In this document: positions 19,407 to 29,276 of the stretch, one piece after another
Layout of the letters: every line of letters begins with the position of its first letter
Position numbering within the stretch: position 1 is the first letter of the stretch
Translations under genes and position numbers: made by a program
The notes under the pieces: model-generated
Databases searched by the model: none
The model's input: the letters and a program-made list of their open reading frames with translations, nothing else
What the model was told of the DNA's origin: nothing
Source of the DNA: an uncultured Poribacteria bacterium
Lineage (GTDB): Bacteria; Poribacteria; WGA-4E; PCPOR2b
Assembly: GCA_958296125.1 (NCBI GenBank)
Contig: OY282444.1
Span: forward strand, 310,001-374,000
Reading direction: 5' to 3'
DNA length: 64,000 nt

Positions 19407-19914
19407 TTAACGATACATATTGATAATACCCTCAAGGGGCTTATCAGCATTGTATGACCGTAGCCGCTTGAGATTGGCAAAATCGTGTTCAACGGGATTA
19501 TCATCCGTCGAATAAGGTGGCAAGTATACCCCCGCCGCGCCACACCGTTCTGTTTGCTGCCGAGAGGCTGCCCGTTTTTTGGGACATTGCTCCTTATATC
19601 CAAGCGTTCTTTCTTCGCGTGTGCTCCAACCTCCGCAGTCCATAGGCAATACAGGACTTTGAAACCCCAAAGTGTCTGGCGCGTTCGTCAAGGGTTTGGC
19701 CGGGGTATGCCCTGACATGGTCAGCGAGTGCCGTTGGGTCAAGGAGTCTTGGGTGTCGGGGTCCGGGTTTTCCGCACGCGAGCGGGTCGGGTGCGTTGAT
19801 CCATTGGTAAATCGCAGCGCGCGCGACGTTAAAGCGTTTTGCGGCTTGTGTTTTACTCCCACCCTTTTCTATAAATGCAAGGACGCGTTTGCGTAAATCT
19901 GCTGAATGTGCCAT
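19407..19914 (-). pseudogene. IS630-family transposase remnant inside the nuo operon
   Basis: The frame from 19914 encodes an IS630 N-terminus with a helix-turn-helix (MAHSADLRKRVLAFIEKGGS, AAKRFNVARAAIYQWI), ending after KNAWI. A shifted frame then gives the IS630 C-terminus, LPPYSTDDNPVEHDFANLKR, with the last Asp/Glu region of the DDE site. Most of the catalytic core between is deleted, so the copy cannot transpose by itself. It lies in the same direction as nuoL and nuoM. I could not define its terminal repeats. Confidence 0.75.
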
Positions 19915-25341: not shown

Positions 25342-26520
25342 CTAGCGATCAACCTCTCCCATGACAATATCAATGCTTCCGATGATTGCGATAATATCTG
25401 CGACCATTAATCCTCGACTCAGCTCTTGCAACGCACTTAACGCTGTAAAACAGGGCGACTTGGCTTTCAGACGCACCGGCTTCGGGGTCCCATCACTCAC
25501 AATGTAAAATCCCAATTCCCCACGAGGGGCTTCACTTCGGGAAAAGATTTCGCCTTTGGGGGGACGCACGGCTTTCATCTCTGCCTGAATTGGCCCATTG
25601 GGAAGACCGGACTCAAGAATCTGCCGGATGATCTGGATCGACTGTTTCATCTCATCCATCCGGACTTTATAGCGATTCCAGCAATCACCGGCGACCACGC
25701 CAAGCTCCGGAATATCTTTGCCAACCGGAACGTCAAAGTCGAATCGGTCATAAATGGAGTAAGGCTCATCTCTGCGTAGATCCCATTGTAGCCCTGCCCC
25801 ACGTAGGTTGGGACCCGTCACGCCGTAGTTAATCGCCATTTCTGTATCCATGACCGCGACCTTTGCTGTCCGCTCAATGAAGATACGGTTGGCGGTGAGC
25901 AGTGCGTTATACTTATCGATCTGCGGCTCGAAATAGTCGATAAATTCCTTAACCTCATCAATAAACCCCGGCGGCGTATCCCTTGAAACCCCACCGACAC
26001 GGATATAATTGTAGGTCAATCGCGCACCGCAAATCTTTTCAAAAAGCAGAAGGATTTTCTCGCGATCTCTAAAGGCGTAAAGAAACGGCGTGAACGCACC
26101 GAGGTCCATGCCATAGGTGCCGAAAGACAATAGATGGCTCCCAATTCGATTTAGCTCACCGATGAGGACACGGAGGTATTCCCCCCGTTCAGGAACGCCG
26201 GAAAATTTCTTCTCATCCGTCGCCAGCAATTCTTCAACCGCCAGACAGAATCCCCAATTCATATTCATCGCTGCAATATAATCCATCCGGTCGGTAAACG
26301 GGATAATCTGCTGATAGTTCAGATTCTCGGAATGTTTTTCAAAGCAGCGGTGCAGATACCCAATATGCGGGATTGCATCCCGAACAATTTCCCCATCCAG
26401 TTTCAACTCAAGTCTTAACACGCCATGGGTGCTTGGGTGCTGCGGGCCCATGCTAACAATCATCTCATCTGAAAATGGCTTCAGTTCAATAAATTTGCTT
26501 TCCGGTTGTGGTGCTGCCAT
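25342..26520 (-). CDS. nuoD: NADH-quinone oxidoreductase subunit D
   Basis: 392 residues, the 49-kDa subunit that lines the quinone-reduction site. MGPQHPSTHGVLRLEL near the start carries the conserved His for quinone binding, and GYLHRCFEK, LTYNYIRVGGV, GPNLRGAGL and the C-terminal GSIDIVMGEVDR are all standard. It is separate from nuoC, not fused. AAGGA precedes the ATG. Between nuoC and nuoD lie two accessory genes. Confidence 0.97.
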   Translation of the reverse strand: MAAPQPESKFIELKPFSDEMIVSMGPQHPSTHGVLRLELKLDGEIVRDAIPHIGYLHRCFEKHSENLNYQQIIPFTDRMDYIAAMNMNWGFCLAVEELLATDEKKFSGVPERGEYLRVLIGELNRIGSHLLSFGTYGMDLGAFTPFLYAFRDREKILLLFEKICGARLTYNYIRVGGVSRDTPPGFIDEVKEFIDYFEPQIDKYNALLTANRIFIERTAKVAVMDTEMAINYGVTGPNLRGAGLQWDLRRDEPYSIYDRFDFDVPVGKDIPELGVVAGDCWNRYKVRMDEMKQSIQIIRQILESGLPNGPIQAEMKAVRPPKGEIFSRSEAPRGELGFYIVSDGTPKPVRLKAKSPCFTALSALQELSRGLMVADIIAIIGSIDIVMGEVDR

Positions 26521-26564: not shown

Positions 26565-28421
26565 TTATGCTGGTGTCCCGTTGAAGTTGTCAGCAGAGGG
26601 CCATATCTGCATAATTATTTTTGCCAAGTCACCGCTACGCTTTTCGATAGCTGCTTCATCCCAGACATCGGGTGCACCCTCTAGTAATGTCTTATTCAGA
26701 AACAGGCTACTATGGTCGTCCAACGTCTTTCGTTTTTCATTCCATGGGTTGTTCGAGAGCTTTGCGTTCAACTTGGCAGTTGTCAACGTGAAATTCCCTA
26801 CTAATTTGACAACCTCATCTCTGTCATTGGTGGCTTCGGTCTCATCTTTATCTGGCGGCAGTGGCCAATTCTGCTGCCACTTTTCTGGCATAATATGCTC
26901 GACAGTCAATTTATCGGTGTCCCCAAGCGGCTCAGCTTTATCGCCCCTTAAATACGTTTCAACGGCTTCAAGCACCATTCTTTTACGAGCGACTGCGCCT
27001 CGCATTGGCGTGGTAGTAAGGTGATCATACAGCATTCGGTCATTAGGCCACGGCATTCGGTTATTAGGCCATTGTGATAATAGGCGTAAGTATTTTACGA
27101 TGATGTCGCTGGGATGCAAAACACCATCATCGTCTAGTTTCAACAGTTCTTTGAACATGGAAACTTTCCCCAGCACTTTCAGCGTACTCGGGTTCTTCAG
27201 AGAGTGCAGGATGGCAATGAAAATTTTGAGTAGACCATGAGAACCTATACCACAGAGCATCCGTCTCACCAGACAACTTTCCAACGCCTTGACACTTCTC
27301 AAACGCTGTTCTTCAGATACCCCAGATGTGTATAACCAGAGCAGCAGAGGTGTGACCACGCCCAGTTTCATCACTTTCATCCGCTTTAAGAAGGTCTCGA
27401 TTTCAGGAATTTTGATCGTCTCCAGGTCTTTGTAAATCTCTCCAGTCTTCCTGATGTCTTCCGCAACGACCTCAATAGGCTCTCGTTCATCTACCCTGTT
27501 TTTCCTTTCTATGTAATCTCGGAACCTCCGTGCGACTTCATCTACGGCAACTTCTCTCTGCGTTCGTATAACCATCCAATGGTTGAGGAATCTGTCAATG
27601 TGGGGCCTCTTCAACTTCTCGTCGGCCTCTTCCCGCCACCATCGATCTCCAAACATCCCCCAAAGCTCTTTCGCCTTTTGAGCATCATCTATGACCCGAG
27701 CCTCGTACATCACCGTGTTCTTGATGAGGTCAGATTGTTTCAGTGGCTCGCCTCGCGCATTCAACGTTTCAAATATGATATGGGGTTTTTCGTCTTGATC
27801 TAAATCAATTACCACTATCTGCAAATACTTAGTGAGCGTTTCTTCTAGGGCATCCGCTCTGGCGATTCGGTTTTCCATTTCCATTTTCAGCCAATCGTCC
27901 ACAGCACCCTTAAAGTACTCGTACGCTTCATTAATAGCCCAATCCTGACTCTGATGATTACTGTCAGAATCTCTGATAGCTGCGTGGAACGCTACCTGGT
28001 CGTAGTAGTTGGACTGCCGTATTTTGGTCTCGTTTTTGCCATCTCCGCCCCAGTGACTGTCCTGATTCGTTGTTAGTTTTGATAATCGGGTTGCTCTTAC
28101 CGTATCATCTTGACTTTGAAATACTTGCTCCGTTGCCCTGATGAGTAGTTGCAAAGTAGTAAGTCGCTGCTGTCCATCTATTACCAGTCTTTTTGTTACC
28201 TCTCCAGTATTGCTTTGCTGCAGTTGTAGGACGATGGCTCCCATAAAGTGTGGTCGTATTTTTTCTTTGTTGAGAAAGTGCTCCGCAACACTGCGTATAT
28301 CATCCCAGAGGGGTTTCCATTGAATCTCCTCTTTCCATGCGTAGGGTCTCTGGAATTGAGGAATTAGATATGAGACCTGCTGTTCAAACAGAGTTTGCAG
28401 ATTAACTATCTTGGCTTCCAT
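26565..28421 (-). CDS. DUF262/DUF1524 protein, GmrSD-like type IV restriction enzyme
   Basis: 618 residues. The N-terminal half is a DUF262 (GmrS, ParB/Srx-like NTPase) domain with IPQFQRPYAW and VIDGQQRLTTLQLLI. The C-terminal part has the DUF1524 (GmrD, His-Me finger nuclease) signature LTVEHIMPEKW with LVGNFTLTTAKLNAKLSN. In the characterised GmrSD enzymes these two domains cut glucosylated hydroxymethylcytosine DNA of phages; many single-chain relatives are thought to restrict other modified DNA. Here it lies within the nuo operon on the same strand with its own AAGGAGA ribosome-binding site. That position suggests horizontal insertion. Confidence 0.85.
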   Translation of the reverse strand: MEAKIVNLQTLFEQQVSYLIPQFQRPYAWKEEIQWKPLWDDIRSVAEHFLNKEKIRPHFMGAIVLQLQQSNTGEVTKRLVIDGQQRLTTLQLLIRATEQVFQSQDDTVRATRLSKLTTNQDSHWGGDGKNETKIRQSNYYDQVAFHAAIRDSDSNHQSQDWAINEAYEYFKGAVDDWLKMEMENRIARADALEETLTKYLQIVVIDLDQDEKPHIIFETLNARGEPLKQSDLIKNTVMYEARVIDDAQKAKELWGMFGDRWWREEADEKLKRPHIDRFLNHWMVIRTQREVAVDEVARRFRDYIERKNRVDEREPIEVVAEDIRKTGEIYKDLETIKIPEIETFLKRMKVMKLGVVTPLLLWLYTSGVSEEQRLRSVKALESCLVRRMLCGIGSHGLLKIFIAILHSLKNPSTLKVLGKVSMFKELLKLDDDGVLHPSDIIVKYLRLLSQWPNNRMPWPNDRMLYDHLTTTPMRGAVARKRMVLEAVETYLRGDKAEPLGDTDKLTVEHIMPEKWQQNWPLPPDKDETEATNDRDEVVKLVGNFTLTTAKLNAKLSNNPWNEKRKTLDDHSSLFLNKTLLEGAPDVWDEAAIEKRSGDLAKIIMQIWPSADNFNGTPA

Positions 28422-28528
28422 ATAAGTTTCTCCTTACTGCTGTTTTCTTATTAGTCTTTCATAGAATTCCACGCATCAATACGGCATTCACCCAAAATCA
28501 GGGGTGCTGAACATTAATTAATGTTTCA

Positions 28529-28765
28529 TTATATTGCTTTTGTATCAAGATGGTGCCATATCTCTTTTCGCGCCTCTTGAATTTCCTCATCAGTCGGTTC
28601 AAACCCTTCCCATAGACCGCCAAGTTTGACTATATTTTTCTCTGCACAAGGTTGAGATTTGTCCTTTAAGAATGTCACAAAATCAACAACCACGGCTAGT
28701 TTTTCCTCTGGCAATTCTTTAATCGCATTAATAATCTGTTGTTGATATTGTTCGGACAACCCCAT
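28529..28765 (-). CDS. Small DUF2281-like, antitoxin-type protein
   Basis: 78 residues from the ATG at 28765, which has GGGAGGAAAAACG just upstream. AIKELPEEKLAVVVDFVTFL is typical of DUF2281 and VapB-type antitoxins. The tail GLWEGFEPTDEEIQEARKEI matches the toxin-binding tail of such antitoxins (LGG-x-x-x-G...T-x-E-[ED]-I-x-x-A-[KR]-[KR]-x-[MI]W). No PIN-domain or other toxin gene is adjacent: nuoC lies 25 bases upstream and the GmrSD-like gene about 108 bases downstream. It is either an orphan antitoxin or a partner of the restriction gene. Confidence 0.65.
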   Translation of the reverse strand: MGLSEQYQQQIINAIKELPEEKLAVVVDFVTFLKDKSQPCAEKNIVKLGGLWEGFEPTDEEIQEARKEIWHHLDTKAI

Positions 28766-28790: not shown

Positions 28791-29276
28791 TCAATAGGGC
28801 ACTCGCATCCCTCGATAGAACTCAGGTTCTTTATAATCCTTACGCATAGGGTAGCCTTCCCAATCATCGGGAAGCAGGATGCGTCGCAAATCACTGTGAC
28901 CATCGAAGATAATCCCGTACAGATCATACGTCTCCCGCTCATGCCAGTTAGCGGTTTTCCAGATATGCTCAACGGTGGAAACGTGGAGTTCTTCTTCTTT
29001 GGGGAGAACGACTTTCAGGACCAATTTGTGACGGTGGGTCATTGAGTAGAGGTGATATACAACGTAATAGTTGGGATCTTTCGCGCCGAGATCAACCCCG
29101 CTCAAACACATCAAGAAATCGAAAGCCAACCCTTTATCTTCGGCGAGGTATTGTGCGACATCAGCAATCGACTCGGTGGCAACGATAATAAAAGGATTCG
29201 CAATGTCTTCTTCAAACGAGGCGATTGATTCTCCAAATTTATCTTTTAGATTTTCGTAAATTTCTTGTAGTGTCAC
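28791..29276 (-). CDS. nuoC: NADH-quinone oxidoreductase subunit C
   Basis: 161 residues, the 30-kDa subunit. HIWKTANWHERETYDLYGI and RRILLPDDWEGYPMRKDYKE are the family signature. The start is GTG at 29276 with a weak GAGG upstream; the first in-frame ATG would remove part of the domain. It is separated from nuoD by the antitoxin-like and GmrSD-like genes. Confidence 0.95.
   Translation of the reverse strand: MTLQEIYENLKDKFGESIASFEEDIANPFIIVATESIADVAQYLAEDKGLAFDFLMCLSGVDLGAKDPNYYVVYHLYSMTHRHKLVLKVVLPKEEELHVSTVEHIWKTANWHERETYDLYGIIFDGHSDLRRILLPDDWEGYPMRKDYKEPEFYRGMRVPY

Follow-up and report, generated by a model that had tools for sequence, protein, structure and literature searches.

A toxin-less DUF2281 gene and a GmrSD-family restriction gene at a nuoC-nuoD turnover site in Poribacteria

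The window, by which we mean the whole 64,000-nucleotide stretch of DNA that was analysed, comes from a sponge-associated Poribacteria genome of 5.16 Mb assembled as a single contig (G000 in our comparisons). On its minus strand, the genes run in the order nuoA, nuoB, nuoC, a DUF2281 gene, a DUF262-DUF1524 restriction gene, nuoD, nuoH, nuoI and onward. The insert between nuoC and nuoD is contiguous and 2.27 kb long (Table 1), with 25 nt between nuoC and the DUF2281 gene, 107 nt between the DUF2281 gene and the restriction gene, and 44 nt between the restriction gene and nuoD. The initial annotation had placed both genes between nuoC and nuoD, on one strand and each with a good ribosome-binding site. 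The coordinates, the Pfam domains and our inspection of the ribosome-binding sites (GGGAGG for the DUF2281 gene, AAGGAG for the restriction gene and AAGGAA for nuoD) agree with this. The placement inside the nuo operon stands; the gene order does not, as the DUF2281 gene opens the insert after nuoC and the restriction gene comes second. No terminator-like site was found on the minus strand from nuoC through nuoD, and promoter-like and terminator-like sites overall were about as numerous as expected by chance. A search for RNA elements gave no Rfam match in the insert. From this layout, we infer that the insert genes are co-transcribed with the nuo operon by read-through from it. A second insertion in the nuo operon, an IS630-type transposase fragment (PF01710), lies on the same strand between nuoL and nuoM (window positions 19407-19914).

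Table 1. Features at the nuoC-nuoD junction, in window coordinates
Feature	Position	Strand	Evidence
nuoC, for the 30 kDa subunit of complex I; flanks the insertion site upstream	28791..29276	-	Pfam PF00329, 1.1e-44
DUF2281 gene, 78 aa, probable remnant VapB-like antitoxin	28529..28765	-	Pfam PF10047, 26.7 bits; orthologues at the same junction
PIN toxin gene remnant, first 11 bases ATGAAACATTA	28519..28529	-	DNA alignment with G004 and G005
Second copy of nuoC 3ʹ end and leader, 47 bp	28443..28489	-	85% match to G002, E 2.4e-8
GmrSD-family restriction gene with DUF262 and DUF1524 in a single chain of 618 aa	26565..28421	-	Pfam PF03235 and PF07510, PADLOC, alignment, AlphaFold2/Foldseek
nuoD, for the 49 kDa subunit of complex I; flanks the insertion site downstream	25342..26520	-	Pfam PF00346, 1.7e-98

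Both Pfam domains of the restriction protein are full length and lie in one chain: GmrSD_N at residues 9-237 (2.4e-37) and GmrSD_C at residues 458-602 (4.5e-22). The mREase_IV and related profiles of PADLOC also match. The GmrS motifs (I/V)DGQQRLTT and FxxxN define the GmrSD family (PMC4619093), and their counterparts here are VIDGQQRLTTLQLL and FETLN; D82, G83, Q84, Q85, R86 and N221 are invariant in an alignment of 31 homologues. For GmrD, the same study gives the His-Me/HNH motifs (E/D)HxxPQ, L(G/A)NLxLLxxxN, NxxFxxKK and WxxxxIxxRxxxLxxxxxxIW, and the translation contains VEHIMPE, LVGNFTLTTAKLN (GNFTL...N), NNPWNEKR and the C-terminal WDEAAIEKRSGDLAKIIMQIW. All of the published motifs are recognisable, some with conservative substitutions. 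The AlphaFold2 model has a mean pLDDT of 81.3 and a pTM of 0.81, and all 13 of its Foldseek matches at E<0.001 are DndI, SspE or BrxU, with modest TM-scores of 0.3-0.5 over multi-domain chains. By its motifs and predicted fold, the GmrSD-like enzyme looks intact. It probably acts alone, and is most likely a stand-alone nucleotide-dependent, modification-sensing HNH nuclease directed against phage DNA. Dependence on Dnd phosphorothioation is unlikely because a search of the source genome gave no DndC match, and a phosphorothioate-sensing, DndI-type function is not favoured for that reason. Within the gene, a 21-bp in-frame tandem duplication (window positions 27029-27070) encodes a 7-aa repeat, QWPNNRM/PWPNDRM, where the model has low confidence; its length could vary between strains.

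Where did the restriction gene come from? Only in this genome does it occupy the nuoC-nuoD junction. Its nearest homologue (71%), in G001, is split into two frames on a different contig, where neither DUF2281 nor nuo genes adjoin it. Since dS between the two genes (0.64) is similar to that of nuoC (0.68), the GmrSD gene may have long been present in the genus and have moved within it, rather than being newly imported. Directly upstream of the restriction gene is a second copy of the nuoC 3ʹ end and leader, which resembles the nuoC end of G002; in that genome, a different gene comes after the same leader. Searched as a possible mobile repeat, the leader matched only the G002 nuoC end, apart from the locus itself and 22 nt in G069. 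We take this second copy to mark a probable recombination joint. Because the restriction segment begins with the nuoC copy, the gene probably came by recombination with a relative’s nuoC-leader-GmrSD-nuoD junction, a route that we infer from the joint. No terminal or target-site repeats were found to bracket the insert, and a transposon origin was rejected on this basis. Furthermore, no mobility gene was found in the window insert or in any nuoC-nuoD insert examined.

The DUF2281 match is marginal (26.7 bits against a Pfam cut-off of 26.5), and orthologues of the 78-aa protein are encoded between nuoC and nuoD in G003, G004 and G005 (85-90% identical) and in G008 (76%). In G004, of the same genus (locus L035), and in G008, of another genus of the family (loci L023 and L118), the orthologous gene overlaps a 130-aa PIN-domain gene. 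Near-identical orthologues of the window gene pair with PIN, and many further DUF2281 genes elsewhere in Poribacteria likewise overlap PIN genes. In the window, the DUF2281 stop overlaps ATGAAACATTA, the start of the PIN gene, as in intact modules, and similarity ends there; an intact PIN gene is absent, and the locus is a remnant rather than a module. DUF2281 is an experimentally validated antitoxin that neutralises its VapC toxin in the marine pair tested (PMC12654330); in Synechocystis, it is listed alongside PIN toxins (PMC4963859). Since relatives retain a PIN partner and only the first 11 toxin bases survive in the window, sequence comparison indicates that the window DUF2281 gene is a remnant VapB-like antitoxin whose toxin has been lost. 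The earlier description of an antitoxin without a toxin is true at this locus.

No intact homologue of the sister genome’s PIN protein was found elsewhere in the complete source genome, which has one other PIN-family gene and one decayed PIN copy with a stop. The decayed DUF2281-PIN copy is located at 2.935 Mb, between dipeptidase and M81-type peptidase genes (named by eye, not by family search), and G005 has an intact DUF2281-PIN pair between the same two genes. This interval (L325 and L327) is a third operon position with DUF2281-PIN. The other Pfam-level DUF2281 gene of the source genome (L212:98-7357, ~463-470 kb) has no PIN gene beside it, and a DUF1156 methylase gene starts within it. 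This DUF2281 gene stands behind helicase, AAA and DUF4435 genes, and is another toxin-less copy, in a defence-type operon.

In this Poribacteria family, small toxin-antitoxin (TA) and defence modules turn over at the nuoC-nuoD junction. Eight of the nine genomes of family f1 have an insert or remnant there, mostly of TA or defence type, and the site has undergone repeated loss and replacement. Co-transcription with an essential operon, the initial annotation had suggested, would tie defence expression to respiration and make deletion costly. G001 has a damaged DUF2281 gene, a MazE-like remnant and DarT with a NADAR antitoxin (DarT + NADAR-DarT1), and in G003 DUF2281 is fused to the last 42 codons of a NADAR gene. 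The G005 junction holds DUF2281, a truncated PIN gene and a MazE-like/PemK-like pair, the PemK match being just under the Pfam cut-off. An AbrB-like gene (recognised by eye; Pfam gave no match) and a clan AA protease gene are found in G007, a 140-aa membrane protein gene and a MazE-like remnant in G002, and only 159 nt in G006. In family f2 (G009 and G012), 2.6-2.8 kb are taken up by a gene for a secreted trypsin-like protease together with a MazE-like remnant. In 50 genomes of family f3 and three of family f4, nuoC and nuoD are separated by 8-502 nt, and none of the above modules has a match in this gap. The relatives are mostly metagenome assemblies, and the frameshifts in the G001 GmrSD gene, G005 nuoD and the G060 PIN gene may be sequence errors. 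Beside the occupied junction of G005, a small deletion that changes the frame splits nuoD (L115, ~4330); it represents either assembly error or real damage.

Toxin-first decay has also taken place independently at a second operon position. In the sister family f3, a different DUF2281-PIN module lies between leuC and leuD (L159, L162, L177 and other loci). Among the 58 genomes with both leu genes in reach, both module genes are intact in 20, the antitoxin is intact with the toxin absent or broken in nine, and both are broken in two. None has the toxin only, and the remaining 27, six of them outside f3, have no module match. On the leuC+leuD tree, the nine antitoxin-only genomes fall at nine separate tips. 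Because this series shows a recurrent antitoxin-only state, a toxin-less DUF2281 gene in a core operon is, on this comparative evidence, an expected state of decay that would need no new partner. In G007, a gene for a 172-aa putative lipoprotein with no Pfam match lies between leuC and leuD (L271:1503-2021).

Together, these observations make the following history highly likely in our view. An ancestral, VapBC-like DUF2281-PIN module would have been resident between nuoC and nuoD. In the window lineage, the toxin gene would have been severed after its third codon, and the removed part replaced by a segment with the fused GmrSD-type gene, which would start with the nuoC 3ʹ end and leader of a relative’s junction. 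DUF2281 would have stayed behind as a leftover antitoxin and not as a partner of the restriction protein, which would act by itself against phage DNA and be expressed by read-through from the nuo operon.

Could the DUF2281 protein instead have been recruited to neutralise or regulate the GmrSD-like protein, giving a new two-gene defence unit? The initial annotation proposed this and suggested that such a pairing would be new. Its picture of an intact-looking GmrSD-family gene and a DUF2281 gene in a co-directional, co-transcribable layout holds, but the pairing is not supported: the partner in relatives is the overlapping PIN toxin, the start of which is still present in the window. It is true that the two genes adjoin on one strand, 107 nt apart, that purifying selection on DUF2281 persists without a PIN partner, and that the genome’s only other Pfam-found DUF2281 gene lies directly before the DUF1156 methylase gene, in a defence-type operon lacking PIN. 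Against this, we searched 118 genomes for PF10047 and PF03235 and compared positions. There were 84 DUF2281 matches and at least 121 GmrSD_N matches; among the matches listed (those of GmrSD_N to about 1e-24, thus the stronger family members), none of the 83 other DUF2281 matches lay within 10 kb of a GmrSD_N match. The window pair is the only one in this comparison, and the lack of a recurrent association is an outcome that the initial annotation had named as speaking against the pairing. Similarly, GmrSD proteins compared with the collected DUF2281, nuo and leu loci matched only the window’s own copies. DUF2281 and PIN occupied the junction long before the restriction gene’s arrival, recombination has left its scar where the two genes meet, and the closest GmrSD homologue, that of G001, has no DUF2281 gene. 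GmrSD-family enzymes also function as single chains in the studied cases (PMC4437046). We therefore consider a recruited partner very unlikely. An assembly chimera is exceedingly unlikely: the restriction gene is found at this place in this genome only, but the genome is a single contig, the joint is accounted for by homologous parts of the relatives’ same junction (the PIN start and the nuoC tail), and equivalent swaps occur in other relatives with independent assemblies. It is hardly conceivable that a single mobile cassette brought in the two genes in one insertion at the nuoC-nuoD junction. The insert is indeed contiguous over its 2.27 kb, but neither bracketing repeats nor a mobility gene accompany it, and the distribution refutes a single insertion, since DUF2281 is at the junction without GmrSD in G003, G004, G005 and G008.

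A less improbable alternative concerns DUF2281 only: that it is kept as a functional orphan antitoxin, either as an anti-addiction factor against incoming PIN modules or as a regulator, independently of the restriction gene. Between G000 and its relatives, dN/dS for DUF2281 is 0.11-0.16, from few changes, and the gene is intact in both G000 and G005 after toxin loss, with dN/dS of about 0.1. In leuC-leuD sister pairs of which one member is toxin-less, pooled pN/pS is 0.09 versus 0.13, again with few substitutions; relaxed selection on toxin-less DUF2281 was not detected in these small numbers. The nine antitoxin-only cases at leuC-leuD also fit retention. This constraint could reflect a retained role, or the loss of the toxin may simply be recent. 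The substitutions are few and power is low, and toxin-first decay yields the same pattern without function because loss of the antitoxin is harmless only after loss of the toxin. Furthermore, the DUF2281 C-terminus is already damaged in G001 and G003, and two leuC-leuD copies are broken. We regard an orphan-antitoxin function as possible but doubtful.

What is the significance of this history? A speculative antitoxin-restriction pair gives way to a testable succession in which TA and defence modules took one another's place inside an essential operon, with the swap still readable from the severed toxin start and the duplicated nuoC end. Our comparisons point to a site within an operon where TA and defence modules turn over and decay begins with the toxin, and we consider this a better finding than the pairing. 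They also carry a warning: an antitoxin adjoining a defence gene need not be its partner. The leuC-leuD series, with 20 pairs, nine antitoxin-only genomes and no toxin-only genome in sister species, provides a natural data set for studying TA decay and whether orphan antitoxins retain a function. We tentatively suggest, as an idea with the odds still against it, that the interiors of housekeeping operons are preferred, addiction-protected lodging for TA and defence modules in Poribacteria, with toxins decaying first and the gap refilled by recombination via the core flanks. A resident module would then make deletion of the junction costly, and expression of defence genes would be tied to core metabolism (nuo, leu). 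Our search of the open-access literature for TA modules inside nuo or other housekeeping operons returned nothing relevant.

Several known systems resemble parts of this locus. Single-chain GmrSD enzymes (Eco94GmrSD, BrxU), DndI and SspE have DUF262 and DUF1524 in one chain, like the window protein, and share the motifs DGQQR, FxxxN, EH, N and a C-terminal W..R..L..W. The predicted fold of the window protein matches DndI (9jfl), SspE (7drs) and BrxU (7p9k). It differs from all of these in its location inside a nuo operon, and from DndI in that no dndC was detected in the genome. DUF2281-PIN (VapC/DUF2281) type II TA modules have the antitoxin first, overlapping the toxin start, and the window gene is orthologous to the antitoxin at the same junction; they retain the toxin, whereas that of the window is deleted to 11 bases. 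As with other orphan antitoxins and toxin-first TA decay, the antitoxin has been kept after toxin loss, but here this has happened repeatedly at two fixed places in operons, and the asymmetry can be counted (nine to none at leuC-leuD). Finally, E. coli has defence hotspots between core genes (PMC10121019), and these islands, like nuoC-nuoD, have constant core flanks and defence cargo that differs between genomes. In contrast to such islands, the nuoC-nuoD junction has no integrase or tRNA site, and its cargo is gene-sized, co-directional with the housekeeping operon that holds it, and swapped one neighbour at a time.
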